From Conchocele bisecta (Eukaryota > Mollusca > Bivalvia > Lucinida > Thyasiridae): DNA of 64,000 nt. The translations under genes were made by a program, and so were the position numbers. Positions within the stretch are counted from its first letter, which is position 1. Every line of letters begins with the position of its first letter. Below the pieces are notes generated by a model. It was not told where the DNA came from and ran no database searches. It saw only the letters and a list, made by a program, of their open reading frames with translations. The DNA is taken from assembly GCA_029237695.1 (NCBI GenBank), contig CM055267.1, forward strand, positions 12,675,043 to 12,739,042, read 5' to 3'. Below are positions 3,001-31,200 of this stretch, in pieces.

Positions 3001-6000
3001 TCGTTATACAGCACAGATAAATACCATCGTTTATACAGCACAGATAAATACCATCGTTTAAAATACAAACACAGATAAATACATCGAAATACAGCACGTG
3101 GTAAATAAAACCATCGTTATATCAGCACGGATAAATAACCATCCAATTAAATACAGCACAGGTAAATACCATCGTTATACAGCACGGATTAAATACACAA
3201 TCGTTATACAGCATGATAAAATACCCATCGTTATACAGCACAGATAAATATCATCGTTATACAGCACGGATAAATACCATCGTTATACACCACGGATAAA
3301 TACCATCGTTATACAGCACGGATAAATACATCGTTATACACCACGGATAAATACCATCGTTATACAGCACAGATAAATACCATCGTTATACAGCACAGAT
3401 AAATACCATCGTTATACAGCACAGATAAATACCATCGTTATACAGCACGGATAAATACAATTGTTTATACAGGCCAACATGTAAAATAACCATCGTTACG
3501 CACGATAAATACCATCGTTATACAGCACGGATAAATACAATCGTTATACAGCACAGGTAAATACCATCGTTATACACCACGGATAAATACCATCGTTATA
3601 CAGCACAGGATAAATACCATCGTTATACAGCACAGGATAAATACAATCGTTATACAGCACAGATAAATACCATCGTTATACACCACGGATAAATACCATC
3701 GTTATACAGCACGGATAAATACCATCGTTATACAGCACGATAAAAATACCAATCGTTTTATAACACATCAGGATAAATACCATCGTTTATACAGCACGAT
3801 AAATACCAATTCGTTATACACCACGGAATAAATTACCATCAGAATTATACAGCACAGATAAATATCATCGGTATACACACCACGGATAAATACCATCGTT
3901 ATACAGCACAGATATATACCATCGTTATACAGGCACGATAAAACAAAGCGGTACCATCGCACAGGTAAATACCATCGTTATACAGCACGGATAAATACCA
4001 TCGTTATACAGCACAGGATAAATACCATCGTTATACAGCACAGGATAAATACCATCGTTATACAGCACGGATAAATACCATCGTTATACAGCACAGATAA
4101 ATACCATCGTTATACAGCACAGATAAATACCATCGTTATACAGCACGGATAAATACAATCGTTATACACCACGGATAAATACCATCGTTATACAGCATGG
4201 ATAAATACCATCGTTATACAGCATGGATAAATACCATCGTTATACACCACGGATAAATACCATCGTTATACAGCATGGATAAATACCATCGTTATACACC
4301 ACGGATAAATACCATCGTTATACAGCACAGGTAAATACCATCGTTATACAGCAGGGCACGGTTAAAAATATCATCGTTATACACCACGGATAAATACCAT
4401 CGTTATACAGCATGGATAAATACCATCGTTATACAGCACAGGAAAATACCATCGTTATACAGCACAGGTAAATACCATCGTTATACAGCACGGATAAATA
4501 CCATCGTTATACACCACGGATAAATACCATCAGTTATAACAGCAGGCAATGGATAAAATACCCATCGTAATTAATACACCACACGGATAAATACCATCGT
4601 TTTTATTTAAATACAGCACAGGATAAATACCATCGTTATACAGCACGGATAAATATCCATCGTTAAATACACACAGGATAAATACCATCGTTATACAGCA
4701 TCGATAAAATACCATCGTAAATACACCACGGATAAATACCATCGTTATACAGCACAGATAAATACCATCGTTATACAGCACAGGATAAATACCATCGTTA
4801 TACACCACGGATAAATACCATCGTTATACAGCACAGATAAATACCACGTTAATACAGCACAGATAAATACAATCGATATACAGCACAGGGTACATACCAT
4901 CGTTATACAGGCACAATGATAAATACCATCGTTATACAGCACGGATAAATACATCGGTTAAATACCACACGGATAAATACCATCGTTATACAAATCCATC
5001 GGATAAATACCATCGTTATACAGCATGGATAAATACAATCGTATACACCACGGTATAAAAGTACCATACGTTATACAGCATGAAAATAAATACCATCGTT
5101 ATACACCACGGATAAATACCATCGTTAAACAGCACAGGATAAATACATCGTTTATACCACTGCACGATAAATATTCATCGTTATACACCACGGATAAAAT
5201 AGCCATCTTTATACATGGCATGATTAAATACCACCGATCGGTTATATCCAGCCACAGGTAAATACCATCGTTATACAGCACAGGTAAATACCATCGTATT
5301 ATACAGCACAGGATAAATACCATCGTTATACTCAGCACAGGATAAATATACCATCGTTTATACAGCATGGCCAAAAACGGAATAAATACCATCGTATACA
5401 GCACAGGTAAATACCATCGTTAATACACACAGGATAAATACCACGTTATACAGCATGGAAAAATACCATCGTACAGCATGGTAAATACCATCGTTTACAC
5501 CACGGATAAATACAGGTTAAGCAGGAATAAATACCATCGTACACCACGGAAATACATCGTACGCACCAGTATCCACGTACGCCACGATAAATACATCGTA
5601 CACCACGGATAAATACCATCGTTATACAGCATGGATACCATCGTTATCAGACAGGTAAATACCATGTTATACAGGAAACCATCGTTATACAGCAGGTAAA
5701 TACCATCGTTATACACACGGGTAAATACCTCGTTATAGCACGGATAAACACCATCGTTATACAGCACAGGTAAATATCGTTATACACGATAAAACCATCG
5801 TATACAGCAGGATAATACCACGTATACACGGTAAATACCAATCGTACACCACGGATAAATACCATCGTTAGTGATACAGCATCCATGTTAAATACCATCG
5901 TATAACAGCACGGTAAATACCATCGTTATACACACGGTAAACACATATATACAGCACAGGTAAATACCATCGTTATACACCACGGATAAATACACAAGTA

Positions 6001-6396
6001 TACATGCACAGGATAAATACACCATCGGTATACAGCACGGATAAATATCATCGTTATACAGCCATGGATAAATACCATCGTTATACAGCATGGATAAATA
6101 CCATCGTTATACTCACGGATAAATACATCGGTTATACAGCATGATAAATACACGTACACCACGATAAATACCATCGGTACAGCACGTAAATCCATCGTTA
6201 TAACAGGCACGATAAATCCATCGTTATACAAACCACGGATAAATACCATCGTTATACAGCATGGATAAATACCATCGTTATACAGCACAGGTAAATACCA
6301 TCGTTATACAGCACAGGTAAATACCATCGGTTATACAGACAGTAAATACATCGTTATACAGCACGGGTAAATACCATCGTTATACAGCACGGGTAA
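1..6396. repeat. 26-bp satellite array
   Basis: Tandem unit cgttatacagcacggataaa + taccat (26 bp), about 240 copies, running from the window edge to a clean stop at 6396 (gggtaa|tcacttcc). Common variants replace cagcacgg by cagcacagg, caccacgg or cagcatgg. Clean copies dominate 180-480, 2700-4500 and 6230-6396. Stretches 480-2700 and 5400-6240 carry many single-base insertions or deletions. Many short frames cross the array because it lacks stops in some phases; I regard none as a gene. In transcript orientation it lies downstream of the last EXOC7 exon found, so it is probably intronic. Confidence 0.97.
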
Positions 6397-6709: not shown

Positions 6710-6923
6710 TTAACTCTTTAAAAGGCGGGAACTGAAAATGTTGTCTGCTGTTGTTTCATATTTTGTATTCTTTATCAGTAAAAACATGGCTTGACAGTAC
6801 TTTAGAATCATTTCCATTGGAAATAATTCTAAAGTACTGTCAATGCATGTTTTTCATGAGTATAATGGCAAATAAAACCTAAACAACAGACAACAAAATC
6901 TAATTCAGCATTGTAAGGGTTAA
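6710..6923. mobile_element. TTAA-flanked MITE, piggyBac-like, degenerate copy
   Basis: Bounded by TTAA at both ends, with subterminal ttgtctgctgttg and caacagacaaca as inverted repeats. A strong central hairpin (about 6786-6849) is built from gacagtactttagaat and its complement. Related copies lie at 19006-19228, 32354-32564 and 32753-32997. TTAA target duplications with CCC-starting ends are characteristic of piggyBac. The left terminus here is diverged. Confidence 0.6.
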
Positions 6924-7221: not shown

Positions 7222-7317
7222 CTTTGTGAGTAGAGGCGCTTCTGTTCATGTATCTGGTCGCCGTAGTATTTCTCCACATCCTTGTTCCAGTGGTGGATCA
7301 ACTCGAGCACGCCCGAC
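7222..7317 (-). CDS. EXOC7: EXOC7 exon, helix after NNYNYLLKS
   Basis: A 96-nt exon (phase 2 to 2) encoding SGVLELIHHWNKDVEKYYGD, then QIHEQKRLYSQ. It matches the vertebrate SELIQLV...ERSYREHIEQQIQTYQRSW region in position and helical character. The acceptor is CTGTGTTGCAG and the donor AAAG|GTATCA, the latter moderate. This is the last exon found. The remaining C-terminal part should lie beyond position 1, across an intron that contains the 26-bp array. Confidence 0.85.
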
Positions 7318-10300
7318 CTGCAACACAGTACCCAGGGCCATACTACCTCACTAGACACGACAATCACTCTCCATGTGAACAATGATGAATATATACAGTC
7401 TCATCCGGCTGCTGGCGGCTGCACTCCTGTCTGTTCCACGTTTTGGTGCCGACGTTGTATTTAAAGCATCAAATACAAGAAAATTGGGGATGGTGACTTT
7501 TTTGTTATTTATGAAAAAGTACGTACAATTCAATTTGTTTTTAGATTTAATGCATTTAATAGCCAAAAGTTTGTCGTCATTTGTAGTAATGTTGGAATCA
7601 GTATTAGTGATATGTGGTTGTGACTGGAAAACAATTTTTTTTTGTAATTTGTGACAAGTGTAGCTCCTGATCAAACAGTACACTCCTTTATTGCTTGTTA
7701 GAAGCATTTTATATTTATGGAATGGCGAACAGTGCAGATCCTGACAGACTGTGCCGTAGAACAAGCCGATCTGGATCTACACTGGCTGTAAAACTCATAC
7801 GCCCCATTTCTTCAGTCACAGCCACAAATATAGAGATATGATAAGGCACAGAGTCCCATACACTGGCTGTATGTGTGGACAGGTACATACCTCCTCATGG
7901 ACTGAATGTGTGGACAGGTACATACCTTCTCATGGATGTATGTGTGGACAGGTACATTCCTTCTCATGGAACTGTAAGTGTGGACAGGTACATACTTCTC
8001 ATGGATGTATGTGTGGACAGGTACATACCTTCTCATCGACTGTATGTGTGGACAGGTACATACCTCCTCATGGACTGTATGTGTGGACAGGTACATACCT
8101 TCTCATGGACTGTATGTGTGGACAGGTACATACCTTCTCATGGACCGTATGTGTGGACAGGTACATACCTTCTCATGGACTGTATGTGTGGACAGGTACA
8201 TACCTCCTCATGGACTGTATGTGTGGACAGGTACATACCTCCTCATGGACTGAATGTGTGGACAGGTACATACCTTCTCATGGACTGAATGTGTGGACAG
8301 GTACATACCTTCTCATGGACTTGAGCAGGTAGTTGTAGTTGTTCAGCATGAACAGCGGTTTCAGGTACTGGTCCGCGTACGTCTCTGACTTGTTGCTCAA
8401 GTTCAAGCCAAGGGCAGATAACACTTTGGCTGCAACACAGGTGAGATAGTACACTCCTGCAGTCTTCATATGATCTATTATAATTTCCTGTTTAATAAGA
8501 ATGGTTCACTGACAAAATGGCAAACTATAGTTGCTGCAGTAGATATTGTAATATCTAAAGTGCATAGCTAAATTTCAGTTTACATACTGCAGTCATCAAA
8601 TGTTTACTTACTGCAGTAATCAACAAACTGCATTTACTTACTACAGTAATCAACAAACGTGCATTAACTTACTGCAGTAATCAACAAACTTGCATCAACT
8701 TACTGCAGTAATCAACAAACGTGCATTAACTTACTGCAGTAATCAACAAACTTGCATCAACTTACTGCAGTAATCAACAAACTTGCATGTATTTACTGCA
8801 GTAATCAACAAACTTGCATTTACTTACTGCAGTAATCAACAAACTGCATTTACTTACTGCAGTAATCCACAAACTGCATTTACTTACTGCAGTAATCAAC
8901 AAACTGCATTAACTTACTGCAGTACTCAACAAACTGCATCTACGTACTGCAGTAATCAACAAACTTGCATAACTTACTGCAGTAATCAACAAACTTGCAT
9001 TTATGTACTGCAGTAATCAACAAACTTGCATTTACTTACTGAAGTAATTATTAGCCAACATTGCTTACTGCAATAATCAGCCAACTTGATTGTGCTTACT
9101 GCAATAATTATTAGCAGTAATATCAGCCAGCATAACTTACTACATTAATTTGTGGACATTACATATTGCAGTCACCAGACAGCATAACTTACTGCAATAT
9201 TCAGTCAATGTCACTTACAGCATTAATCAGCCAGCATTACTTACTGCAGTAATCTGGCTAGCCAATATTACTTACTGCAGTAATCAGCCAACTTCAGCCT
9301 ACTCTTCCTGTCATCAACGGCCTCGCTGGCAGCTGCCTGTTCTCCTGCAACATGTCAGCAGTCACGGTCATATGGTGTACAAATAGCAAGTAGAGATGTT
9401 CACAAAATGGCCTGCTAGAAACTGTATTACACTGCAAATACAATATGAAATTCAACTAGTACATATATAATTGCTTGGGTGTAGGCTCAAAAACTGAAGT
9501 GTCTTAGCATGCACACCGATTACTATTTCCATCTATTAAAGTTAATAGTACACAGTTTTTTATGTCCATACGAATAGCAAATTTTCTAGAGAATAATCGT
9601 TTTTCTGTAATGAAGTAAACATACAAGGAAAAGAGATTTAATTCCAGTATTTGATGAACTTACCAAATATCAACACTGAAAAGATGGTCGCAAACAAAGT
9701 ATTGAAAATGACACAAATTATAAACAGTGATTAAACCGAAATAAATACATCCAAATCTGATACACATTGAGCTGATGAAAACAAGAACAAGAGGCCCAAA
9801 TAGGCCTGTATCGCTCATATGAAATTATAATCCCCATTATAAAGTAAATCTGAAACGGAACAGACTGTCGATTATAAATAACAAGTTCCATCAAAATTTG
9901 TCTGCAAGTTCATAACAAGAGCTGTAGGAGAACAGCATAGCTCGACTATGAGGGTTGTCGATGTACACATAGCTTGACAAAAAAGGTGGCCGCGGCCTGC
10001 ATAAAAACCTTAACCAAGGTTGACTAAAAACCTTAACCAAGGGAAATTAAGTAAGTAATTCAAGGTTAAATGTAGGTCAATGTGGCCGTGGCCTGCATAA
10101 AAACCTTAACCAAGGTTGACTAAAAACCTTAACCAAGGGAAATTAAGTAAGCAATTCAAGGTTAAATGTAGGTCAATGTCAGATATAGGTCAGGGGTTAT
10201 TGATGTACATCACTTGGAGATGAAGTTTTCCAAGTATGGTTGCTGTAGGCCCAGGAATATTCCATATACAAGCTTCACTAAAAACCTTAACCAAGGGGAA

Positions 10301-13266
10301 ATAAGAAAGTAATCCAAGGATAAAAGTAGGTGAAGGTCAAATATAGGTCAAGGATTATTGATGTACATCACTAGGAGATGAAGTTGTCCAAGTATGGTTG
10401 GTGTAGGGCCAGGAGTATTGCATCTACAAGCTTGACTAAAAAACTTAACCAAGGAGAATTAAGTAAGTAATTCAAGAGGAAATGTAGGTCAAGGTCAAAT
10501 ATAGATCAGGGGTTATTGATGTACATCGCTATGAGAAAAGGTTGTCCAAGTATGGTGTTAGTATGCACAATAGTATTCCATGTACAAGCTTGACTAAAAA
10601 CCTTAACCAAGGGGAATTAACTAAGTAATTCAAAGTTAAATGTAGGTCAAGGTCAAATATAGGTCAGTGGTTGTTGATGTACATCACTAGGAGATGAAGT
10701 TGTCCAAGTATGGTGGGTGTAGGGCCAGGAATATTCCATATACAAGCTAGACTAAAAACCTTAAACAAGGGGAATTAACTAAGTAATTGAAGAGGAAATG
10801 TAGGTCAATGTCAAATATAGATCAGGGTTTATTGATGTACATCCCTATGAGAAAAGGTTGTCCAAGTATGGTGTCTGTATGCACAATAGTATTCCATGTA
10901 CAAGCTTGACTAAAAACCTTAACCAAGGTTGACTACACTAGTATTCCATGTACAAGCTTGACTAAAAACCTTAACCAAGGTTGACTAAAAACCTTAACCA
11001 AGGGGAATTAACTAAGTAATTCAAGGTTAAATGTAGGTCAAGGTCAAATATAGGTCAGGGGTTGTTGATGTATATCACTAGGAGATGAAGTTGTTCAAGT
11101 ATGGTGGGTGTAGGGCCAGGAGTATTCCATATACAAGCTTGACTAAAAACCTTAACCAAGGGGAATTAACCAATTAATTCAAGAGGAAATGTAGGTCAAG
11201 GTCAAATATAGATCAGGGGTTATTGATGTACATCCCTATGAGAAAAGGTTGTCCAAGTATGGTGTCTGTATGCACAATAGTATTCCATGTACAAGCTTGA
11301 CTAAAAACCTTAACCAATGTTGACTAAGAACCTTAACCAAGGGGAATTAACTATGTAATTCAAGGTTAAATGTAGGTCAAGGTCAAATATAGGTCAGGGG
11401 CTGTTGATGTATATCACTAGGAGATGAAGTTGTTCAAGTATGGTGGGTGTAGGGCCAGGAGTATTCCATATACAAGCTTGACTAAAAACCTTAACCAATG
11501 GGAATTAACCAAGTAATTCAAGAGGAAATGTAGGTCAAGGTCAAATATAGATCAGGGGTTATTGATGTACATCCCTATGAGAAAAGGTTGTCCAAGTATG
11601 GTGTCTGTATGCACAATAGTATTCCATGTACAAGCTTGACTAAAAACCTTAACCAAGGTTGACTAAAACCCTTAACCAAGGGGAATTAAGTAAGTAATTC
11701 AAGAGGAAATGTAGGTCAAGGTCAAATATAGATCAGGGGTTATTGATGTACATCGCTATGAGAAAAGGTTGTCCAAGTATGGTGTCTGTATGCACAATAG
11801 TATTCCATGTACAAGCTTGACTAAAAACCTTAACCAAGGGGAATTAACTAAGTAATTCAAGAGGAAATGTAGGTCAAGGTCAAATATAGATCAGGGGTTA
11901 TTGATGTACATCGCTATGAGAAAAGGTTGTCCAAGTATGGTGTCTGTATGCACAATAGTATTCCATGTACAAGCTTGACTAAAAACCTTAAACAAGGGGA
12001 ATTAACTAAGTAATTCAAGAGGAAATGTAGGTCAAGGTCAAATATAGATCAGGGGTTATTGATGTACATCCCTATGAGAAAAGGTTGTCCAAGTATGGTG
12101 TCTGTATGCACAATAGTATTCCATGTACAAGCTTAACTAAAAACCTGAACCAAGGTTGACTAAAAACCTTAACCAAGGGGAATTAAGTAAGTAATTCAAG
12201 AGGAAATATAGATCAGGGGTTATTGATGTACATCACTAGGAGATGAAGCTGTGCAAGTATGGTGGGTGTAGAGCCAGTAGTATTCCATATACAAGGTTGA
12301 CTAAAAACCTTAACCAAGGCGTGACGGTGACGCCGACGGTGACGCCGACGCCGACGCCGGGGTGACAACATCAGCTCTACTTATTCTTCGAATAGTCGAG
12401 CTAAAAAGTAATTTGAATATTTGTTCAGGTGGTCTCAAAATAAGTACAGTCCATTGGGGGTAAACGGATCACCGGTAAAAACGGGTCAGTTTTGCATTTC
12501 AAGCCCAGAAATGGAAAACATAAGCAATTTATAAAAACATATAATACCATAAAAGATCTACCACCTCTGAAGGCAACTGACCGAACATTTTTAAATTAAG
12601 CATCTTACTAAAGTGATTTTTATGGACCTTTCGATGATGTAATCAACCAATGTCAACAAAACAAATGCTCCAGAGTGAACATTGCCTAGATACCTTTGAT
12701 TTGATATATAACATGACCATATTTGGTCAAATGTGAAATTTGACCCCAACTCGATCCCCTGGGCCCCGCCCATTTTTGATCCCGGGGTTATCATTTTAAC
12801 AAATCTGAAAGAGCATTGACTATCGATCATTCCTGCTAAGTTTCGTCAAAATCGGTTTGGCAGATCGTGAGAATTTATTTTCTTAAAACTTTACCTAATT
12901 TTCTACGGCAGCCATCTTGGGTAGTGCGATGATCTCCATTTTAACAAATATATAAAGGCTTCACCCACAGACAATAACTAGGAAGTTTGACCAGCAAGGA
13001 TGATCTTTCGGCGGCCATCTTGGATGACATAATCATTAGATTACGACTAATATGCTCTAGAGTGATTGTCTCCTCGATACCTGAGAAATGAGAAATTTGA
13101 CCCCTACTTGAACCCCGGACCCCACCCATTATTGATCATATTAACGCATAGATCATCTCCGTGAAGTTTGGTCAATATCGGAAGATATCTTCAATTCAGA
13201 AGAAGATGTTGGAAAAGTGTTGACGGGTGACGGATGGACGATGGACGAATAGCAGTAACAATAGCC

Positions 13267-13297
<31 letters not shown>

Positions 13298-16200
13298 TTC
13301 AAATTGATATACCGGTACATTGTCATTTGAACATTGAATCTGAACTTTCCTAAATTTACTGACATTTACTGGACTCCTTCAATAACCTATTCTTCCTCCG
13401 GTACTATCATTCCAGAACTGACACTATAAATTAATATCTACCTTTACCACACCATACCTATCTTCAGCATATGTACCAATTTGTTCTATCAAATTCTAAG
13501 GAAGTTGTGTTTTATCCACTGTATACCATCATGGACTGAACAAACAGGAAACGGGGGAAATAATTTGATAATGAATTTTCGTTATCTGTACCAGGTATCA
13601 CAATTTGCGAAACATATTTTAGTTGCGACAAAATGATACTATACCACATATACAAACACGGGGTTCATCCTTACCGGAATCCCGACTGGAGACCTGGTTT
13701 GGCCCTCACATACGTCTTTGGCATTTTGTATGCGACAGTTGAATCTGGTTATACCCCTTATGTGAGTATTACTATATTCGAAACACTATTTTAGGGGAAG
13801 GGGCCAAGTGACTTGGTGTGGTATGGACCTGGCACCAGGTCAGGTTATTCTAATTTCAGGGCTGAATATATTTGTTCTCGATGAAAATATTCAGTTCAGA
13901 TTTTGGGATTTTCCCCCCCCAATGCAGCAGGTTAAAATGGGATCGAACCCATTTGCCCGGCCTTACATGACCTTAGCTGTTGATAGGCCGTTAAACACTA
14001 ATAAACAAACATATACAAACAGGCTTCCATTCCAGACAATAGTTACAAATAATATTAAATTAGTAACCAACAAATGCACACAAACTATCGTTCACAGCCA
14101 TAGTTACTTTTTATTACAATTTGGTTCATAAATATAACACAAATCTACCATTCAATATTTGTTTATGAATCTTTTTATTTTCACTTTGCACACCTATCCG
14201 AGAACCATTGAATTAAAAAAGAAGTTTTTTTTTGCATTGAGCTCAAAATTGTGAGCAATAGCATTAACCCTTTCAACACTACAGCCCTCTATATGCTATA
14301 GCAGTGTTTGCAAACAGTGTAGATCAAGTGAGCCGCCTCGTGACAATCCGTCTCATAAAGGATCTGTTTGTGAAGATTGGATTGGTTAGAAAATTATAAT
14401 ATCAAAGTCCATTCCAGTTATTTTGGGGTGAACGGTCGAAGGGTCATACGATCCTTGCTAGCAATTCAGCGTGTGGTGGTGGTAGGCTTGTAGATTGTCC
14501 TGAAGACAAAATACAGATGCAGAGAGAATTATTATTACACATATGAGGGAAAATCAAGAAGTTTTGAGACCGAAGTTATAAAATGGAGCAAGAATAAGAT
14601 TTCTGCATACAAGTTTCCATGTAGCTAGCAAAACCGCATGATGACAGGATACATAATTTACACCTAATGTCACATTATTCGCAACAGTATTGTTAGGTAC
14701 TGGTAAACCACAACTCAAAATTTCCAGACGAGTATTCAAGTGTTTCATATATGATTGCTATGCCATAATGTTATGTTTTTCACATGTTTTGTGAGAAAAT
14801 TATTACAGATTAATAGAAGTAAATAAACTATGTGAAACATTTTTTAATGCACACACAAGTTTTGTTGTGTGGCAGGTTGGTGAATGTGATGTGACTCCCG
14901 ACAGGCTATCTAGCAGAGTCGTCATAAATGCTTATCCAGATGTTGGCTGTCTTATAAAAGTAAATACATCCTACTATATTGTATAGGAATTATAAAAAAG
15001 TCTCATAATTTTTTATCATATATCAGGCCCGTAGCTGTGAATAAAATAATGCCACAGCTACTGAGCGGTGGGTGTGGGGGCCCCAAAAAAATCAACCTAG
15101 ACCCTCAATATGTTGTTTCCTGCGTTCTAGAGTCAAAATAGTGCCACGGCAAGGTGACTGCCGTGGTGGTGTCTACGGCCGTGTATATAGAATATATAGA
15201 ACAGACAGAACATGTGTACAGTATATATAATTGTGATGGTCAAAGAGTAGGTGAAGTAATCAGAACAATATTAAACAATGGTTGCAAGTGAAATAAAAAT
15301 AGTGTAAGTACACAATGTGTGTTCACAGTCTGTGAGGTATATGAGTAGTTAATGCACGATGCGGCAGTAGGTGTTACCATCTAGCCCGGACTCAAACATC
15401 GCTGTAAACTGAAACACAAGGGTCTGTAAACCCTGGCCGTCACTTCCTGTAACAAACATGGGTTTCATACAATACAACATACCGTTAGTAGTAAAATGCA
15501 ATTGAAGCGGTCAGTGGAAAATAGGGGTTAAGTTCATAAGGACAAAATATAGAGTCCCAATATACAGTATAGTATCGGTGAGACAACATATAGATGCTGT
15601 CGAAGGCTGGCACGTGATGGATAAATAGACAGACAACATATAGATGCTGTCGAGGCTGGCACATTGATGGATAAATAGACAGAGCATGGAATTTCCAACT
15701 AAATTTGTCAGAAAATGTAGGCTTACCAAATATCCAACACTGTGGGCCCTGGCCCCAAATATTCAAAGGCTGGTGGGACCTTCACATAGGGATAGTATAA
15801 GTGGGGGGTGAGGCATAGAGTTGTTACAGCATGAACAAAGACCTCTAGATTAAGCCACGTGTCAACTATTAAGAAGTTCCATGAAAGAAACATTACGAGA
15901 AATTTGCCTCTACTTGTGAACACAATAAGCCTGTCACCTTGACCTTGGGAGCTGTTGGAGGGAAGGGTGGTCATGGGTCTGTATGAAATAAACAGAAATT
16001 ATTAAAAATATACCCCGAAAGTAAAGATTTGCGACAGACAATCTGATTCCAGTTTTCCCACCCCACAACTGTTTTTTGGGAGGAGGGTGGGGTGGGCTGT
16101 GTTGTGGTACATGAATCAATATTCACTGGCTAACACTAAACTCAAACAAACAAGAAATGTGTCTGTCGAACGCGGATGCCACCTGCAGCATATTTGAGTG

Positions 16201-19200
16201 TGACAAAATGGTTAACCGAAAAGTGTGACGGACGGACGGACGGACTTACATTTCGGACCTTAGGGGGTACTTGCTATATAAAAGATCAAAGGAAATAACC
16301 CGTAAGACACAATAGGCTTACGGGGTACGGAATAAGTTCCATTGTCTTCTATTGTCTTAGGCCACGCCCCCTACCCCATAAGTACCCTAATGTGTGCCCG
16401 GACAGATGGATGGACGGACAGACGGTCCAAACACTATATGCCACCCGTTTCTTCGAAACCCGGTGGCATAAAAAATCAAACTACTTTAAATTATGTAATG
16501 TGTGCGTATACACAGAATGAATATGGAATATACATAAACAAAGGACAGTGTAAATGTAGGATGGGAAATGTGATTTTGACTGTATATATCTGCGGGAGTG
16601 GTACAAATATGAGGCAACATGAAAGTATATAACAGGTCGAAGATGGGAGAGTTTAATACAGTAGAACATCTCTAAACCAGACACCCTGGGCCCCAGGGTG
16701 TCTGGTTTAGAAATGTTCCACTGTAATTCAGATTGTTGAGCACTCCAAAGCCTGTCTGCGTGCTGTGCAGTCAAATACAATAAGAAAATATTTAGGGAAA
16801 CCACTAAAATGCATGTCCTTTCTAGAGAGCTTTGACTCCAATGTACTAGTATATAAAACAGGTAATGGCATTGTCACATGAAACATATTATCTTGTCTAG
16901 TACACCAGGTAAGTGTCCAATTGACCTTGACCTTGGGTGTAGGACCTGCTGTCCTCTTACACACAGCCATACTTTGCTGCTGAACATTATTGAAATCTGA
17001 CAGGCAGTTCACAACTGAACAGGTAAATATAACAGAGTCAGTGCAGAGAAAATGGAGGCAACCACATTTGCTAAACAAACAATTTGAACATTTTCAATTA
17101 TGTGACCTTGACCTGGAGCACTGACATGTGTTGTATATTCAATTGCATAACATATTGTTACCAATTGCATGTATAACAGTAACAATTTATTGAATTGTGT
17201 CCAACAGTTCAAAAGGAACTGCACATAATATGGATTTAAACACATTTACTAAACACCGTGAACATAACAACCTAGGCCTTTCGCACTGGGTGCACAAATC
17301 ATAAAAACAAATTTCTGCCAAATAATACAGAAATCTGTAAACATGATAAAAAGTCAGAAAACAACCATGTTTTATCATAAATCCTATTAGAATTCCTCAG
17401 GGACTAGCAGAAGATAGATTTGTTTCAGGACACAGCTTTATGTATATTGTAGATAGCAGGGAGACGTTTCACTAAACTTTGTACGACTAAAATGTTCGTA
17501 AGTGCAAATTTTAGGATCGTCTGGAAATTTCAATTCATGGATTTACATTTATGCCTATGTTCAATAGATGTAAATCCAATAATTGTTTACAAGAAAACAT
17601 TGTTAATGTTAAATTTACCGACTATCATAATTTTTCACTTTCAAACATTTTAGTCATATGAAGTTTAGTGAAACGGCCCCCTGATTAGTGAAGCTGGGGT
17701 GGGAAATTGTACGCGGTTGCGATGCCAGAGTGTATCTAGGGTTGGGATGATAGTCACTGTGGGTGTATGTAGGTCGGGCAGGACATGGGAGGGCCGGGTG
17801 GGGGCACAAGCTGGGTCACTGGTCAACACTTACCCAGGTCCTTGCCAATCAACCCTGGGGTGGGCAAACAAACATTGGGCACGTCTAATAGTGTCACTGT
17901 GACTGGTAAAATGGACCTTATAATACAGCATTTGTGGCCAGTGTAACCCCTGATCTGACCTGCTAGTATTCTCCAGCAGCCTAATGATGATTCATACTGT
18001 ATGTTAGAAGCATGACAGGTGGTACACTGAATGATGAACAGTGCAGTAGCCGATTTCATCAAAATTGCAAAGTATACTTATCTAGCAAAGTATACTTTGA
18101 GGGAGTAATCATTTATTTTTCCCAAAATGCATTATTTCATATAGAACTAACCGTTGCATATATTTGATGATTAAAAGTATGCAGAATTATTATACTGAAT
18201 TTATTAAATTATCACAGCCAAATTGGCTGTGATAATGTAATAAATTCAGTATAATAAAAAATAATATATTTATCCTAAAATTGAAAATTTCTCCCTCAAA
18301 GTATACTTTGCTAGATAAGTATACTTTGCAATGTTGATGAAATCGGCTACAGACTGTGTGGATGTGCAGCCTGATTGGGTGTATACAGGTTGCAAAGGCC
18401 ATAAGCCACATTCTCCGTCACAGTGCTATGTAGCATCATACTAACTATTACAATTGTTAGAAATCATCACGTTCACAATGCATTGGAATCATTTTAGCTA
18501 AAACCTTTTTATATTTTACCATCACCAACAAAGGACAACAACAAACTGCTCTGGAATTAACTTATAATAGACAGAGCTCCAGATAATTATTTTAGCTGAA
18601 TATCAAAAGTGGGAGTACAAAATACGCACAGCAATGTGAAAATACGCATTGATTTTCAAATTGAGTAGTGAAAATACTGTCATAAAGTTGAAAATTCACT
18701 TAGTTGAGCTACAGTGTTTGCTTTTTGCAGCTCAAATAAGTGAATGTTTAAATTTGTTATATTTTTTTTATCACTTGTTCCCTATTTAGTAATGAAGAAA
18801 ATCAATAATTAATTTGTAAAAGTAAAACACGCAATGATTTTGAAATCAGGGGGTATAGTACACTTTAGACACAAAGCTTATCTGGAGCTCTGAATATAAT
18901 GGTACACACTAAAACAAGAAAGGTGTTACGTTACGCACTACATATTACACAACATGCCTTGTTATGTGAGGTGAAGACTTGTCTGAATGTACTAGGAGTA
19001 AATCATTAACCCTTAGACCGCTACACACAACAATCGTCGTCTGCTGTTGCTTGTATATCTTGCCTGATTTCTCAATAAAAACATGATTTGATAGCACTTT
19101 AGAATCATTTCCAATGATTCTGAAGTGCTATCAAAGCATGTTGTAAATTATTCTAAAGTGCTGTCAAAATGGAAAATAGAAAATAAACAGCAGACGACAA

Positions 19201-22200
19201 AAAATGAAGATAGCGGTGTAAGGGTTAAGTGTTTTAGAATGTATGTATTACTAAGTGTCTGTGACTGGAGAAATGGAGCTGATGGAATATGTGACCAGTG
19301 TAGCTCCTGATCAAATGGCACACTCTTATACTGGTATTTCATTGATGGACTGGCGAATAGTGCAGATCCTGATCAGACTGTGCGGATGCACAGTCTGATC
19401 TGGATCTACACTAGTCGCCAAATCCATAAGCCCCATTTCTCCATTCAGAGCCACATATTATGAGATACGTATACATGTAAGAAGTGTGCAGGTTTACAGT
19501 GATGTTCGTTCCATAATACTGGTACAGGTAGTTTCACTTATTATTAGCAACACCTTCAAATGCAAATATTATACAAAGAAAAAGAAAAACTGGTGCTAGA
19601 TACCTGATTATCAATCAATAAATGAAATAAATATCGAAAATTTATCGAAAATCTAGAAATGCGACTATGGAACACGGATGCCCCCACTGGCAGCATATAT
19701 CGATGAAAGCTGTACAATTGGTGGGACATAAGAAGACACACCCGCCTGTGTTAATCTTGCCAAGATTTCACCGTTTCTGAACATCTATTGGCAATATCAA
19801 CTAGCAATCAAGCAGTTTGATGGGCTGAGCCTGAGTTGCGATACAGCTCAGCAATCAAGCTGTTTGATTGCAAGTACAATATTTAAGTATTTTGAAATAA
19901 AACTAGACATAATGTTTGTAAAACATGGATATGCCCCCATGGCATACTGGACTCTAACTAGAGATTGTGTGGACAAAAATCAAATACAAATTTGAAAGTC
20001 ATTTGAGAAAGTCTTACAAACTTTTTGACGTAAGAAAATGGCTAAATGTTTCAGCACCATTTTGAAGGTCACAAAGGTCAAAGTCATGTCATTGGTGGTG
20101 TGATTGCATCACACATGTTCAGGTGAGTGAAGTGTCCAAATATTAAAGTAGTCCTTTAAGAAATATTGAAGATATTACATGATGGAAAAACTCATACAAC
20201 CTTTTCATCGTAACAAAATACAAAATGGCTAAGTGATTCAGCACCATTTCGAAGGTCACAAAGGTCAAGGTCATGTGATTAGTGGTGCGAGTGTGTCACA
20301 CATGTTCAGGTGAATGAACTGTCCAAACATTAAAGCAATCCTTCAAGTATTATTGAAGATATTACATGATGGAGAAACTCTTACAAACTATTCGACTTTT
20401 CAACGTAAATGTACGTGGATGGACGTATGGACGTATGGACGTACGGATGTATGGACGAACGTACGGAACCTCAAGAGCAACGCAATATGACACCTTGCTA
20501 TCACACAGGGGGCATAATAATTCACAAATATTGGCAAGATTAGCGCATGTGGTGGTGAGTAGACAGGTAGGTCTGTTGAAGGACCTAAGCCAACAAGGTG
20601 AACAATCAGTCAAAGAGAGAGGACTCAAAATAAACAAGATCCAGAGTCGCCTTTCTTGCACATGACACGCCTTTAGGTCATGATGCACACATGTATGAAG
20701 TTTCATAAAAATACAACTTAGGGTAAAGACAAAGAGTTAAAGGAACACGGTAAACATTGTATTAAAGTGAGATGACTCCAAATATACAAAATCTAGTTGA
20801 GCAATAAATGATGTGTGTGTAAAGCAACAACTGATTGGTTTGTGTGAGCATGATTGATGGTGGGTAAAACAGTAGCTAGAGGACAATATTCACCGACTCC
20901 CCAGGCACACAGCAACAAAAGGACCTAGGCATGGATACACACAGCTCATACTGGATCACAATACAAAATGTGGCGATATACATACGCATAATACACGGTC
21001 TTACCCTTTCGACACTAGAGACCCTTATAATAATGTTAATCATCCCAGGGTGTCCGGTTTGGAGGGGTTCCAATGTGTCTGCTTTTGTACATCATCACGA
21101 CAACCATGACTTAATGTGGGCGTGGGTGGCTTGGTGTGCGAACATATTTTTTTTTCTCGAACTGCCGCAGTGGAATTTTTTTTTTCTCTATTTTTGTTTT
21201 ATAATAACGAACTAAAATAGCTGTCTTTCCTTTTTTTGTTAAAATTGTTTAATGCATGTATATTTACATATTTTCATCTATAATACATCTACCGGGTATC
21301 GCGGGAAGCAGAAACTATGAGCATAAAGCAAGAATAAAATCTCAATTTTATGCTAATGGCAGTACTAATTATGTTTGTTATGTCCTGGTTCTTGCAGCCT
21401 GTGATACCAAGTTACACGTCAGGGAGAGGATTTATATAAGCTTGCTTTCAATCCAATCCCATTTGTATAATTCTGTATTTACTATGATTGATGCATTACT
21501 TGTAAATAATATACAAATAAAATATGTTTAAACTAATAATGTTTGAGCCGTCTCGTCAGGATCTGCACTATTTGCGGATATTTTTCCAATTTCTAAAAAC
21601 AATACTTGTTTCTGATAAATGTGATAGTCTGAAAAATAACATGGGAGTGTCCATTCCAGTTACATAGGGATGAAGGGTTAACACACTATGTTGCATCGTC
21701 TGATATCAGGGAACTGGTTCTAACAGGCTATGAAAAACTTTTTTTCCACCAAGAAAACAAGAACAGATATTTACTGATATCCCCAGCCGTATTTTATATA
21801 CTGGACCATTGAAGTGAAATTATTATTATAACTAAACTAATTTAATTATTATATTAAAAATTGTTTCTCAAATTTTTCATTTAATCATTTGAGTTAATAC
21901 CTGCCTGAATATATGAGAAATGCTATGGGATTTTGTACCTAAGAACATGTGTGATTTTTCATGAAATATACTTACAGAACTGTGATATTTCTGTAAATGA
22001 TGTCGAAAGATGACGAAAGATGACAACATTTTCATAGCAAATTCCACAATGTTTTGTCGACTTTTGACGTCATTTACAGAAAATATTCTAAATTCTGTAA
22101 ATATTTTTCACGAGACATCGCACATATTCTTACGGGCGGTACAAAATCACATTGTGTGCCTCATATGTACCGTACCCACAGTTCACCAAATTAGAGCCAG

Positions 22201-25200
22201 TGAGCAGGGGCTCACTCACGGACACCCTCAGCCGCCGCCTGCACACAGAAACAACAACTCAACAGTAAGTTTGCAAACTTTAAGTCATTTTATACTGATC
22301 TCGTGCATGCAGGCCACTTAGGTGGTCTATAGTAGAGATTTATTGATTAAATAGCATTTAATGTCCATTCAACAGCAAGGTCATATACATAATGCACCTG
22401 TATTGGGGGAGCACTGTATATTCACAACAAAAAATACAAACAAATCACTCAGCACTGAAAGGCAGTGTCCAGGTGCCCGTTTCACTAAACTTCGTATGAC
22501 TAAAATGTTCGTAAGTGCAAATTTAGGATCGTCTGGAAATTTCAATTCATGGATTTACATTTATTCAGCATAAATGTAAATCGAAAAATTGTTTACAAGA
22601 AAACATTGTTAATGTGCAATTAACAGACTATCCTAATTTTGCACTTACGAACATTTTAGTCGTACAAAGTTTAGTGAAATGGCCCCCTGATCCAGTGCCA
22701 TGTACCCTTACTACGGGGACTGAAACCCAGTAAGATTCTGTGTGAAGATGTCATTGTAAGGATACAAATACCCTCCTATATGTGGGCTATAGAATGAACA
22801 TATGGATGATGACTGACAAGCACATGAAGTAATGCAAATGTTATGGACAGAAAGTCAGGGAGACAATTGAAGGAAAGGCGAAAACTATATACCCAGGTAC
22901 ATGTATGTCAGCGGTATAATTATTAGAGAGTGTGAAAATGAACACAACAGATTGTAGCTAGGTAGATATAACATTTCTTGCTCCCAAACACATTTATTTT
23001 CATTTTTCATGCTAGTGCACAATCAGAACAAACTACATGAACCGATATGTGGCTGTGATTGGAGAAATGGGGCTTATGTGCCCATTCCATCAATGAAACA
23101 CCCATCATGCATCTAACAAGCCATATACAGATTGTTATCAGTCTACACAAGTGTGCTATTTGATCAGAAGGTACATTGGTCACATATTTCATAAATCCTA
23201 TAAGCCCCATTTCTCCAGTCACAGCCACATATAGAGAATCAACTGACTGCCGGTATCCTGTGTGAGCTGTGTGTATACAGTCTGGCTCCAAGCTGTGTTG
23301 GGGCCGACAACTTACCGTGCATGAGGAGCATGGCACCGGCTGTCTCCACGTAGTCCTGCAGCTGCTCCAGGAACAGGACCACCTGTAACACAACCGGGGT
23401 ACATTGTCTACTGTAACACAATCGTTTATATGGTCTACTGTAACACAACTGGGGTACATGGTCTACTGTAACACAACCCGGGTACATTGTCTACTGTAAC
23501 ACAACCGTTTATATGGTCTACTCTAACACAACTGGGGTACATGGTATACAATGGTTACATGTAACACAACATGGGGTACTTGGTCTAACCACACTCGTAC
23601 ATGGTCTACTGTAACACAACCGTGGTACATGGTCTACTACACAACGGGGTACATGTCTACTGTAACACAATACATGGTTTCACTGTAACACAAAGGGTAC
23701 ATGGTCTACTGGTAACACAACTGCGGTACATGGTCTACTGTACACAACCGTGGTACATGGGGTACAGTAAACACAAATGGGGTACATTGGTTCTACTGTT
23801 AACCAACAAACCGCGGTACATGGTCTACTTGTAAACACAACCGTTTACATGGTATACTGTAACACAACCACGGTACATGGTCTACTGTAACACAAATGGG
23901 GTACATGGTCTACTGTAACACAACCACGGTACATGGTCTACTGTAGCACAACCAGGGTACATGGTCTACTGTAACACAACCGTTTACATGGTCTACTGTA
24001 ACACAACTGGGGTACATGGTCTACTGTAACACAACCGTGGTTCATGGTCTACTGTAACACAACTGGGATGCATGGTCTACTGAAACACAACTAGGGTACA
24101 TGGTCTACTGTAATACAACCGGGGTACATGGTCTACTGTAACACAACCGGGGTACATGGTCTACTGTAACACAACCGTTTACATGGTCTACTGTAACACA
24201 ACCGTGGTGCATGGTCTACTGTAACACAACCGGGATACATGGTCTACTGAAACACAACTAGGGTACATGGTCTACTGTAATACAACTGGGGTACATGGTC
24301 TACTGTAACACAACCGGGTTACATGGTCTACTGTAAAACAACCAGGGTACATGGTCTACTGTAACACAACTGTGGTACATACTCTATTATCACACAATTG
24401 GGTACATGGTGTACTATAACACAACCAGGGTACACGGTCTACTGTAACACAACCGGGGTACATGGTCTACTGTAACACAACCGGGGTACATGGTCTACTA
24501 TAACACAACTGTGGAACATGGTCTACTATAACACAACCGGGTTACATGGTCTAGTGTAACACAACCGGGGTACATGGTCTACTGTAACACAACTGTGGTA
24601 CATGCTCTACTGTCACACAACTGTGGTACATGCTCTACTGTCACACAATTGTGTACATGGTCTATTATAACACAACCGGGGTACATGATCTACTGTAAAA
24701 CAACCGGGGTACATGGTCTACTGTAAAACAACCAGGGTACATGGTCTACTGCAACACAATTGTGGTACATACTCTACTATCACACAATTGGGTACATGGT
24801 GTATTATAACACAACCGGGGTACACGGTCTACTGGAACACAACCGGGGTACATGGTCTACTATAACACAACCGGGTTACATGGTCTACTGTAACACAACC
24901 AGGGTACATGGTCTACTGTAACACAACTGTGGTACATGCTCTACTGTCACACAATTGTGTACATGGTCTATTATAACACAACCAGGGTACATGGTCTACT
25001 GAAAAACAACTGGGGTACATGGTCTACTGTAAAACAACCAGGGTACATGGTCTACTGTAACACAACTGTGGTACATACTCTACTATCACACAATTGGGTA
25101 CATGGTGTCTATACACAAACCGGGGTACACAGTCTACTGGACAACGGGGTACATGGTCTACTGTAACACAATGTGGTACATACTTACTATCACACAATTG

Positions 25201-28200
25201 GGTACATGGTGTACTATAAACACGGGGGTGGGGTACACAGGTCTTACTGGAACACAACCGGGGTACATGGTCTACTGTAACACAACTGTGGTACATACTC
25301 TACTATCACACAATTGGGTACATGGTGTACTATAACACAACCGGGGTACACAGTCTACTGGAACACAACCGGGGTACATGGTCTACTGTAACACAACTGG
25401 GGTACATGGTCTACTATAACACAACTGTGGAACATGGTCTACTGTAACACAATTGGGGTACATGATCCAGGCTATGTGTTCTATTACAGTCATGGTCTAC
25501 AGTCTACATGGGGTTCAGTGGTACCTGGTCTACTCCAGTCAGTGGTAAATGGTTTACTCCAGTCAGTTCTATTACAGCCAGTGGTACACTGTCTACAAGT
25601 CAGTGTTACATGGTCTACTCCAGTCAGTGGTAAATGGTCTACTACAGTCAGTGGTACATGGTCTACTAGTCAGTGGTACATGGTCTACTACAGTCAGTGG
25701 TACATGCTCTACGATATAGTCAGTGGTACAAGGTATATTCCAGTCTGTGGTACATGGTCTACTACAATCAGTGGTACATGGTCTACTACAGTCAGTTTGT
25801 TTGTTTGTTTATTAGTGTTTAACGGCCTATCAACAGCTAAGGTCATGTAAGGCCGGGCAAACGGGTTCAATCCTATTTTAACCTGCTGCATTGGGGGGAA
25901 AATCCCAAAATCAGAACGGAATATTTACATCGAGAACAAATATATTCAGCCCTGAAATTAGAATAACCTGACCTGGTGCCAGGTCCATACCACACCAAAG
26001 CCACTTGGCCCCTTCCCCTAAAATAGGATTACGAATATCGTAATACTGACATAAGGGGTATAACCAGATTCAACGGTCACATACAAAATGCCAAAGACGT
26101 ATGTGAGGGCCAAACCAGGTCTCCAGTCGGGATTCCGGTAAGGATGAACCCCGATCGTTAAATTACCCATCGCGTGCTCCCACCTGCCACCCACTCTACA
26201 GTCAGTGGTACATGGTTGTGATACATGTTCTCAATCTGTCAGTGGTACATGGTCTACTACAGTCAGTGGTACATGGTGTACTAGTCAGTGGGACATGGTC
26301 TACTACAGTCAGTGGTACATGGTCTACTACAGTCATTGGTACATGGTCTACTAAACCGCCAGTGTCACATAACCAGAGGTAAATGCCAGACGAGGCGAAC
26401 CAAGTCCCGATATGGGGGTCAGGGATCATTCTTCCCGCTACCACCCTGGGGATTAGTTTAATTCTTAGCATAAAAAAATCGGCAAAATGACAGACAAGGC
26501 AACCACCTGGTCTGCCTCATCCTGGTTACGGTACTGATGGTCTACTACACAGTCGGTGGTCATGGTCCATAGCACGTTCAGTGGTACATGATCCATTAAC
26601 GCACACAGTGGTACATGGTCCACTAACATAAGCAGCAATACATGGACCACACACAAACACAGTCAGTGGTACATGATCCACCAACAGTCAACAGTACATG
26701 GTTAAACAACATAGCTAATGGTACATGATTCACCGACACAGCCAGTGGTACATGGCCCACCAATATGGCCAGTGGTACATGGCATATCAACATAGCTAAT
26801 GGTACATGGTTCACCGACACAGCCAGTGGTACATGGCCCACCAATGTGGCCAGTGGTACATGGCATATCAACATAGCTAATGGTACATGGTTCATCGACA
26901 CAGCCAGTGGTACATGGCCCACCAATATGGCCAGTCGTACATGGCATATCAACATAGCTAATGGGACATGGTTCATCGACACAGCCAGTGGTACATGGCC
27001 CACCAATATGGCCAGTCGTACATGGCCTATCAACACAGATAGTGGTACATGGCCTACCAACACAGCAATGGGTATATGGTCCACTAATATGTTTATTTTG
27101 GCTGAGCCAGAGTGTTGGTGCTACACAGGCATGATATGCTATTTGCAGAGCTCCAGATAAGGTGCGTATTGGCATATTTACGCACTTATTTTAGCAGAAT
27201 ATGCATTGATTATCAAAGTCGGAGTACAAAATACTCACAGCAATGTGAAAATACGCATTGATTTTCAAATTGAGTAGTGAAAATACTCAAGGTGCATGAT
27301 CACGTGGTTACAACAACAACAACAATGGCTGAAAGTGTTGAAAGCATGCCCACTCCAAAGTAGGTATTGTTTGATATTTTCCTTAATAGGCAACGGATTT
27401 TGATGAAATATGGCGCAGCAAACGCGTCTTCGTGAGCTACATTTGGTGGTCCCGGGAGTTCGGCACATACTTATCTCATTTTTACGAAGAATCGATTTCC
27501 GTGTCAGTAGACACGGAAATCGATTCTTCGCAAAAACGACAGAAGTTTGGGCCAAAGTACCGAGACCACCAAATGCAGCTTACCAAAACGCGTTTGATGC
27601 GCCATATTTCATCAAAATCTGTTACATAATAAGGACATAATAGTAGAATACGTACCTTGAATCGGAGGGCTTCTCGAAGTTTCAGTACTTGTTGTTGTTG
27701 TTTTAACCACGTGATCATACACCTTGATACTGTACTAAAGATGAAAATTTACTTAGTTGAGCTGCATTGCAGCTCAAATAAGTGAATTTTTAAATTTGTT
27801 ATATTTTTTATCATTTGTTCCCTATTTAATAAGGAAGAAAATCAATAATACATTTGTAAAAGTAAAATATGCATTGAATTTGAAATATGGGGGTATAATA
27901 CTCTTTAGATACAAAACTTATCTGCAGCTCTGTAGTTGACAAGTGACTTACATTGTTGGTGAGTTCATGAACGGTGCCGTCGCGTGGCATGTTGGACGCC
28001 TTGTCAGGATCATTCTTGATGTTACCAATGAATTCTTCCAGCGCCTTTGCCCCCTAAACTCAGAATAAATGAATGTAGGAATAATAGTTTATTGCTTAAC
28101 CATTTCACCCCAAAAGTACTGGAATGGATTTTGATACGTTAATTTTCCGACAAATCAAGCCATGACAGATTGATTTTCAGACTAGTCCATTTATGAAAAG

Positions 28201-31200
28201 GCTTTGTTTTTTCTAAAAAAGATATGAAAACTACTTGTTACGAGATGGCCGTAGCCCACAGGTCACGCCTGCCGAGGCCTTGATAGTACATGTATACCGA
28301 AAAACTTGTTAACCAAAAACTTTAACTTTCATGACTAATCGGCTCATCAGGATCTGCATTTTTTGTCGCACCCGCTTGCGGACAGCACGATATAGTCGGC
28401 ACATTGGTGTACGTACATGCGTATGGCTGATCTGGATCTACACTGTTTGCAAACGCCGCTATAGAGGTCTGTAGTGTTGAAAGGGTTAACCATACTGGCT
28501 CTTGAGCACAATATTAACTAGATTGGTCAGTAAGCGAGGCTTACGGAATACCACCTCCCCCCCCCACGTGGGCCCAGGTACCGCTAAATATGTAAAAAAA
28601 AATTCCAAGTGTGTGGGCTTGTGACCTTGACTCTGTGCGCGAACGTGAATTTGTCATATGTTGGTAGAGGTCCATTGGATATGTATGTGACATGTGACAT
28701 TGACCTCGAGATCAGCGGGGATTTGTCACAGCATGATAGTAGAGCCTTAGAGGAATGCATGCATGAAATATTAAGAATTTTCGATGAAAGAAATAGCAGT
28801 TATAACTTATTTCTCTGATGTTGAGTCTTGTAAAGAGACTAAGTATTTGACCTTGACCTTGGGATCAGCGGGGGTTGGACGGTCATGGATTTGGCACAGC
28901 ACGGTAGTAGAGACTTATAGGAATGCATGTGCGAAATATTAACCATTTTAGATGAAGGAAACAGAAGTTATAACAATATTTCTCTGATGTTAAGTTTTGT
29001 AAAGAGACCAAGTATTTGACCTTGACCTTGGGATCAGCGGGGGTTGGACGGTCGTGGATTTGGCACGACATGGTAGTAGAGCCTTACAGGAATGCATGTG
29101 TGAAATATTAAGCATTTTAGATGAAGGAAATAGAAGTCATAACAATATTTCTCTGATGTTAAGTTTAGTGACGGACGGACGGAATAAATCAAAGGATTCT
29201 TTTGTGTTAGGCTCCGCCCCCTGGCCCCTTACTCTCGAATACCTGCTCGGACGGATGGACGGACGGACGGACAACCTGACTCCAGTATACCCCCCCACAA
29301 CTCGTTGTGGGGGGTATAACAACAAACATACAAGCAATATGATAATACAAGCAAGATGACAGACAGTGGACTTAAAAGTGGTATTATGTTTACACTAAAT
29401 AGCAGTTTGTAGGTACATAGTTACAATGCTATGTGAAGAGAGAGAGTGTAAAAATGGAACACACTTCATGCAAAAAAGCGGGTATAGTGAAATGATGTAA
29501 GAAAATTGTCACTACTGATCATACATACGCACAGAATACGAGTGAATATATCTATCAATATGTTACACATTTCAGTTGACATACGTTATAGATGTGACAA
29601 TTTTTTATCTTTTTCCTTTTAGATGCCTTAACAATAAATGTTCTTATATATGGTGAACAAAACCAAACAGGGCTAAAACTGAACTACATACATAGTACAT
29701 TTTTCGCAATATGCTATTAATATATAAATGTATACATTTAATAACTATGTACACTGAGCACTTTCACTTACAGATCCAAGATCCAAAAACAATTAACACA
29801 GTCACAATGACCAAACAAGAATTCCGCCACGGAAGCGGTATCGTGCCTGCCAAGGCATTTGAATGTGAACATTAAAAGTAAATAAATGACCTTGACCTTG
29901 AGAATTTGAATGTGGGGGTGTGCGTAATGAAGCATCATCCCTAGACAAACATTGATGTGAAATATTATCAAAGTCTGGCAAGGGGTTAAACAAGAACTTT
30001 AACGCATTTGCCTTACAAAAAAAGCGGATGACGCGGACAGCGCGGACGACGCGGACTATGACGGAAAAAGCGCCAACTATAGTCGCGCCTCTGCAATTAC
30101 ATCTGTAATATTCTGATCTGGTGCCCGCTACCTTGGATCAAACCAGAAAAGGCCGACACCATTTTAGGCAACTACTATTGTTAATAGAAGTGAAAGGTAG
30201 TTCAGTAGATGGTCAGTCAATCTCCATGTAATACAAGTAACATGCCCATATATTAACTCTTTGCATGCTGGGAAACTTGTGGGCTATAAATGGTTAAAAA
30301 ATAGCAGACGATAATTTGTTATGTTAATTTTATCTTATATTTCTCTCTGTAAATATTATAAATGTTTTGGAATTTTATTAGAATCGAGTCCAGAGGACGT
30401 GATTCTAATGAAATTGAAAGGCATATTTACAGAAAAATATTAAAAACACTCCTAATCTGTTGGCTCTTATTTTCACTGCAAGCATACAAAGAGTTAATGT
30501 TTTTCAGCATAAAACAATCTTGCAACACTGTGTCAACATATTTACATATAGACCTAGCCACACATCTTGTATTTTGTATACGCAACCGTAACTACAGTTG
30601 CTCTATCTAGACTATGGTGTGGTTTATACAGGAAGTGTGCAGGCCACATGGTACCCACCGTGCTCCCTAACGTCGACAACAAGGACGCCAACTTGGCTCT
30701 CGTTGGTGCCTGGCAACCCTGCAAATGGAGAAATTACACTGTGTACACCAAACACCAACTAAAATAACCCGACAACAGCAGTAATGGCATTATTTAACCA
30801 TTACAATGATAAATTAAATTTTATCGTCTCCTGTTTATTGTTATTTTCCATTTTTCTCATTATCACATGACAAAACTTTAGAATCATTTCAAATGGAAAT
30901 GATTCTAAAGTGCTGTCAAAGTATGTTTTTATTGTCAATGAAGACAAACTACACAACAACAGCAGACAACAATTTAAACTGCCAAATCTACCGCAGATGA
31001 TGCTCTGGAAGTAGTTGTATGGGAAGTTAGTCCTGATTTTCCAAGTTCAGTATTTTTTTTTATAAAACTGGTCTATCACCACAGGCCCAGACTGTAGCCT
31101 ATTTCATCAACATTGCAAAGTATACTTTACTAGCAAAGTATACTTTGAGGGAGTAATCATTTATTTTTCCTGAAATGCATTATTTCATATAGAACTAACA

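Follow-up and report, generated by a model that had tools for sequence, protein, structure and literature searches.

Minisatellites lie at the splice junctions of the gene EXOC7 (Exo70) in the window, that is, the whole 64,000-nucleotide stretch of DNA analysed here (C3:12675043-12739042), which comes from a likely bivalve with an assembly of 1.89 Gb in 1196 contigs. The gene is on the minus strand of the window. Our reading, to which we assign a probability of roughly 0.75, is that two of the arrays (A1 and A2) are tandem copies of segments straddling a splice donor and a third (A3) is flush with an acceptor, that each began as a local duplication of the junction and expanded through slippage or unequal exchange, and that they are tolerated since the outermost copy is used and joins an intact exon. 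The placement of the arrays in EXOC7 is non-random, and the tendency is probably one of this genome as a whole.

Minisatellites at the splice junctions of EXOC7

The arrays were located as follows (window coordinates).

7867..8321, minus strand: A1, minisatellite of 35 bp x 13.1, taking in the GTATGT donor and the 13 bases at the end of exon 8429-8309
8578..9292, minus strand: A2, minisatellite of 26-31 bp with about 23 full units, taking in the GTAAGT donor and the 17 bases at the end of exon 9344-9276
23383..25464, minus strand: A3, minisatellite of 28 bp with about 75 units, flush with the AG acceptor of exon 23382-23316, with 0 exon bases
25515..27091, minus strand: degenerate 24- and 27-bp arrays continuing A3, broken up by other sequence
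-4096 to 6396 (window part 49..6396), minus strand: A4, minisatellite of 26 bp extending over 10.5 kb and running out of the window

The A1 unit (TCCATGAGAAG/GTATGTACCTGTCCACACATACAG) consists of 11 exon bases, the GTATGT donor, and 18 more intron bases, and the A2 unit (TTGATTACTGCA/GTAAGTAAATGCAAGTTTG) consists of the exon end TTGATTACTGCA, the GTAAGT donor, and intron sequence. Each A3 unit (TAGACCATGTACCCCGGTTGTGTTACAG) closes with an acceptor-like GTTGTGTTACAG, the AG of which was kept in 68 of the 75 units; the degenerate 24- and 27-bp arrays and the A3 units, as judged by eye, have GTACATGGTCTAC-like stretches in common. These results confirm the three arrays of the initial annotation, namely two that include a donor with exon bases and one that reaches an acceptor. 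A fourth array near a junction, A4, was absent from that annotation: it stops 17 bp upstream of an acceptor that lies beyond the window and belongs to the exon with its start at -4114, which the reader could not see. A fifth EXOC7 minisatellite (28 bp, 78653-79285) is not at a junction.

The proposal that the units are unrelated and arose separately was also supported. A1 was found at one place only in the 1.89-Gb genome, and A3 matched its own array and, weakly (68%), one place on contig C5. The local score of the unit pairs was matched by shuffled units in 390 (A1-A2), 29 (A1-A3), and 271 (A2-A3) of 500 shuffles. A unit sequence common to the arrays was rejected, as only A1-A4 stood out of the 10 unit pairs (4/500 shuffles), with A1-A3 next.

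EXOC7 was analysed in the window plus 20 kb on its lower and 40 kb on its upper side. Exon matches spanned 84087 to -6738, approximately 91 kb, and 17 exons were placed, some roughly; the gene may have more. Seven exons were read in the window.

7222..7317, minus strand: exon VLELIHHWNKDVEKYYGDQIHEQKRLYSQ, donor AAAG/GTATCA, its join to the next exon agreeing with orthologous proteins
8309..8429, minus strand: exon KVLSALGLNLSNKSETYADQYLKPLFMLNNYNYLLKSMR, its donor being the outermost copy of A1
9276..9344, minus strand: exon EQAAASEAVDDRKSRLKLADYC, its donor being the outermost copy of A2
23316..23382, minus strand: exon VVLFLEQLQDYVETAGAMLLMH, its acceptor AG being the final two bases of A3
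27952..28053, minus strand: exon without a junction array
30659..30718, minus strand: exon without a junction array, its join agreeing with orthologous proteins
31430..31549, minus strand: exon without a junction array

When joined, these seven exons matched mouse Exo70 (PDB 2pft) at query residues 3-210 with an E value of 7e-59. The highest identity among named proteins was to Ruditapes philippinarum EXOC7 (89% identity, 36% query coverage), and other high-scoring rows included Mytilus, Saccostrea, and Mya; these matches are the basis for calling the source a likely bivalve. At E <= 0.001, the Pfam PF03081 profile matched two exons genome-wide, and both belong to EXOC7. Furthermore, the exon joins reproduced the orthologous proteins with no gap or insertion at A1, A2, or A3. 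The annotated Ruditapes EXOC7 isoform X2 stops just past the counterpart of exon 23316-23382 (LMHGKFYNLRVFFIL), as if reading into the next intron.

An array was counted as at a junction when its near edge fell between 60 bp inside the exon and 20 bp outside it, and four of the five EXOC7 minisatellites did so. In 200,000 random placements over the 17 exons, a mean of 0.138 arrays fell at junctions; at least three did so in 41 runs and four in 0, in accordance with the earlier suggestion that the placement goes beyond random. This shuffle test is post hoc, the gene having been chosen for the feature, and a sample from other genes served as the independent test.

Junction arrays in myosin, kinesin, and dynein genes

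The sample was drawn from Pfam profile matches in the same genome and consisted of 30 of 71 myosin head, 70 of 124 kinesin, and 20 of 97 dynein DHC_N2 exons; adaptin (36 matches) and SNF2 (61 matches) exons stood outside it. The 120 exons gave 240 junctions, two per exon, 220 of them with an automatically called site. Sixty exons were taken with 1.5-kb flanks and 60 with 130-150-bp flanks, and the copy numbers at the short loci are lower bounds. Arrays spanning the junction with exon bases (3 to 43) were observed at 7 of the 240 junctions (2.9%, interval 1.2-5.9%). At 80% identity the exons formed 104 clusters, and the seven array loci fell in seven different ones.

L012, myosin donor: 68 bp x 10.8, 43 exon bases, placed by eye
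L057, kinesin acceptor: 50 bp, 31 units, 14 exon bases
L061, kinesin acceptor: 30 bp, 47 units, 12 exon bases, placed by eye
L080, dynein donor: 30 bp x 4.8, 17 exon bases
L095, kinesin acceptor: 26 bp x 4.6, 14 exon bases, automatic acceptor wrong and placed by eye
L099, kinesin donor: 42 bp x 3.5, 3 exon bases
L100, kinesin acceptor: 35 bp x 4.1, 8 exon bases

Both sides of the intron were affected, with donors at A1, A2, L012, L080, and L099 and acceptors at L057, L061, L095, and L100 (A3 being flush). Several loci were left out before counting: L035 (70 bp x 1.9 adjoining a donor), the unit of which, by eye, is similar to sequence that occurs repeatedly in the window; two loci with 13-bp arrays near the acceptor, L088 (stopping 6 bp short of it) and L087 (about 14 bp short); L094; 4-bp repeats in L015, L031, L077, L089, and L099; and L047 (125 bp x 2), which was under the copy threshold. 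At 1356-1601 of L047, a two-copy 125-bp duplication extends across a kinesin acceptor, and its upstream exon copy has decayed.

The intron background was estimated from the 60 long loci. At 100-1400 bp from the exon (156 kb), 25 exon-facing array edges were observed, evenly spread at 0.16/kb; a row 259 bp upstream in L057 belongs to its junction array and was excluded (26 to 25). By rate, junction arrays exceeded this background with a ratio of 4.0 (P 0.004) for all arrays and 5.9 (P 0.0006) for strict arrays. When pseudo-junctions were slid through 117 flanks, 0.69% carried an array, which corresponds to 1.66 expected as compared with the 7/240 observed (P 0.0016, or 0.0026 with the background uncertainty included). 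Taken apart, the first batch gave P 0.066 and the second P 0.015. These results suggest, with modest statistics, that the general tendency of this genome considered in the initial annotation does exist.

Splice signals and origin of the arrays

Splice sites in the arrays were scored with hand-set weights. In A1, 12 donor-like sites scored >3, and six internal ones equalled the genuine donor (9.9); many internal donors of A2 likewise equalled the genuine 6.6. A3 had 116 acceptor-like AGs with scores >3, the best being 8.7 as compared with 6.9 for the genuine site. The genuine splice sites sit beside about a dozen to more than 100 look-alikes, which the cell would likely have to ignore. In silico, read-through at each of the 11 internal A1 donors ran the exon pair into a stop at its codon 50. 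Since every internal A1 donor would bring this premature stop, a productive mRNA would have to use the outermost copy, and the orthologous proteins fit such use. The unit lengths are mostly not multiples of 3.

Conservation within the units was also compared. The AG was kept in 30 of the 31 L057 units and in only 3 of the 47 L061 units. In A1, A3, and L012 the splice-core columns and the remainder of the unit were conserved to about the same degree; in L061 the core was conserved less well. Purging of the internal splice signals was rejected for A1, A3, L012, and L057, with L061 as the exception. The exon and donor columns were conserved at 0.90 and 0.91 in A2 (0.76 in the intron part) and at 0.97 and 0.97 in L080 (0.86 in the intron part).

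The following course of events would account for the arrays. The units are seen to contain exon-end bases and the donor, or to end at the acceptor. Copying appears to have proceeded from the exon to the array, because conserved coding sequence makes up the exon part of the unit and the dynein paralogue L086, which has the same exon as L080, is without the array of L080. A two-copy duplication, of which L047 (125 bp) is the one case, may come first and then grow into the intron. Judging from the orthologous proteins and the in-silico read-through, only the exon-proximal site would yield a productive mRNA, and the other copies would be decoys. Within the sample, junctions appear to carry such arrays about four times as often as intron points do, the statistics being modest. 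As to the cause, we lean towards a bias in mutation, by which tandem duplications favour exon ends, over selection for additional splice sites; as a first guess, this bias ranks first and chance with tolerance second. A wider proposal is held tentatively, at somewhat less than an even chance: that minisatellites of this likely bivalve are born at splice junctions throughout the genome, with a junction-seeded array at about one in 30 junctions, thousands in the genome, and many with tens of full-strength decoys that the spliceosome ignores in favour of the exon-adjacent copy.

The best surviving alternative, which we nevertheless regard as unlikely, is chance in a repeat-rich genome, where minisatellites arise anywhere, those at junctions are tolerated through the intact outer copy, and EXOC7 was noticed for having several. 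The array edges found throughout the introns agree with it. Several further points weigh against junction duplication and partly in favour of chance. With automatically called junctions only, 4 of 220 carried an array (P 0.067, or 0.092 by rate), and with L095 added, 5 of 220 (P 0.019, or 0.031 by rate); three of the seven junctions (L012, L061, and L095) were located by eye, so that part of the excess depends on such placement. In a wider 66-bp window the ratio fell to 2.8 (P 0.024). Five of the seven array loci are kinesins. A3 and A4 are without exon bases, which makes a junction origin less sure for both. The better-conserved exon and donor columns of A2 and L080 are not required under pure neutrality. 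Finally, a genome-wide search for three AGGTRAGT motifs 18-48 bp apart gave 1379 matches as compared with 1508 for the backwards pattern used as the control, that is, no enrichment, and on contig C1 up to 144.4 Mb there were 12 places as compared with 20 in the control, among the matches listed and grouped by hand. The backwards control matches an apparent dispersed repeat (TGAGTGGAACCTCTCTAAAC...) and AGGTRAGT is present in only 6 of 116 predicted donors, so that this count is of low power and constitutes weak evidence against, not decisive. Chance is opposed by the EXOC7 shuffles, although these are post hoc, and by the excess of junction arrays over both intron backgrounds.

Preferential survival is quite improbable. 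It supposes that exon-end sequence cannot be deleted or overwritten and that arrays consequently persist longer there than deep in introns. Indeed, the dynein paralogues L087 and L088 have a 13-bp array near the same acceptor, indicating that some arrays outlast gene duplication. However, longer survival would also raise the number of arrays in the intron next to the exon, whereas no array edge was observed at 0-100 bp on the intron side of the 60 long loci (about 2 expected, small numbers) and the density was flat from 100 to 1400 bp; the empty zone counts against this explanation.

We consider it slightly less probable still that the arrays are kept by selection for the regulation or robustness of splicing that repeated donors or acceptors would provide. 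The full strength of the internal sites and the conservation pattern of A2 and L080 would fit such a role, and human IFI6, according to passages of PMC4526556, uses internal repeat units as donors. On the other hand, the splice core is no better conserved than the rest of the unit in A1, A3, and L012, the AG has been lost from most L061 units, every internal A1 donor brings a stop, and most unit lengths are not divisible by 3. An assembly artefact, with reads collapsed or duplicated at exon ends, is very improbable: the evidence comes from a single assembly, but the copies differ by substitutions and indels and seven further loci have the same form.

Relation to known systems and further observations

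Canestro et al. (2002) reportedly described mirage minisatellites in amphioxus Adh3, and Turri et al. (1995) are said to have described a minisatellite of human IFI6 (G1P3, 6-16) that provides multiple splice donors. The arrays of EXOC7 belong with the mirages: A1 and A2 in the strict sense, A3 as a flush array, and A4 as a nearby one. If a mirage is defined as an array spanning the exon-intron boundary, A1 and A2 (13 and 17 exon bases, respectively) and the seven sampled loci are mirages, and A3 (flush, 0 exon bases) and A4 (17 bp short) fall outside the strict definition.

In passages of PMC3087553, amphioxus mirages are tandem repeats that span 5' or 3' exon-intron boundaries, as in the globins BflGb6 and BflGb9; passages of PMC3902484 add PGBD5 and, as cited there, troponin C. 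The unit lengths given in these two sources are 10-72 bp in Adh3 and 150-160 bp in the globins, AG/GT is kept in many but not all units with a normal mRNA expected, and two haplotypes of BflGb6 carry 6 and 3 units, respectively. The Adh3 data and globin RT-PCR (reverse transcription-polymerase chain reaction) are said in the globin paper to suggest undisturbed splicing (PMC3087553, in part). The present arrays resemble these in spanning boundaries, in affecting donor and acceptor sides, in their overlapping unit lengths, and in carrying splice signals in many units. They differ in that they come from a likely bivalve and not a cephalochordate, in that three or four lie in one gene, in copy numbers that reach 75 and more, and in a sampled rate with an excess over the intron background; the data here are genomic DNA of one haplotype only. 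The initial annotation knew of no described class of this kind in molluscs. The class itself is known, as the amphioxus mirages (passages of PMC3087553 and PMC3902484), but no mollusc report of junction-spanning minisatellites was found in the literature searched, most subscription journals being outside its scope. New here are the likely bivalve, several arrays in one gene, a first rate, and evidence of a junction excess.

In IFI6, passages of PMC4526556 state that downstream repeat units serve as donors and give isoforms. The likeness lies in minisatellite units with splice donors at an exon end. The difference is that the internal A1 donors would in silico bring the stop in 11 of 11 cases, so that coding isoforms of the IFI6 type are not expected from A1, the only array compared. 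The gain of introns through AGGT stretches duplicated in tandem in the genome (e.g. PMC4974935) likewise involves copying of splice-like signals; there a new intron forms inside an exon, whereas here an existing junction is copied and the joins agree with the orthologous proteins, proteins alone being compared. Earthworm metallothionein minisatellites lie inside introns, and the passages concerned (PMC12783039) do not state that they span junctions.

If the sampled rate holds, this genome would be a natural experiment in splice-site choice, in which donors or acceptors stand in nearly identical series and an intact protein results from the outermost one alone, and a 'nearest the exon wins' rule would be directly testable. 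Amphioxus mirages would then represent a wider route of intron growth, no longer an oddity confined to a handful of genes in a single lineage, and also a route of intron change, as proposed by the globin authors (PMC3087553, in part). Exon ends would be places where tandem duplications start or are retained.

Arrays of a 30-31-bp unit with GAG/GTGAGT donors were also observed at C1:89084005-89087341 (minus strand) and C1:89607056-89607156 (plus strand). They have the same unit and lie <50 kb from two paralogous dynein genes, with very different match numbers among the matches listed, and this donor array probably predates the dynein gene duplication. At C3:20662973-20664058 and 20770131-20772545 (minus strand), myosin exons are in single open frames of 1249 and 815 residues that continue through intron sequence. 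SNF2 helicase domains in unbroken frames of >1000 residues were found on a small contig (C895:1872148-1872969 and 1996408-1996887), perhaps from a bacterial contaminant or symbiont.

An EXOC7 intron also carries a 132-bp satellite of about 32 kb (35832-63620, continuing to 67864 outside the window), which ends about 248 bp from the next upstream exon (68112) and touches no junction. A recurring palindromic element around CTTTAGAATCATTTCCAATGGAAATGATTCTAAAG, identified by eye at 6800-6860, 19090-19170, 30880-30930, 32434-32497, and 32868-32931, resembles a miniature inverted-repeat transposon.

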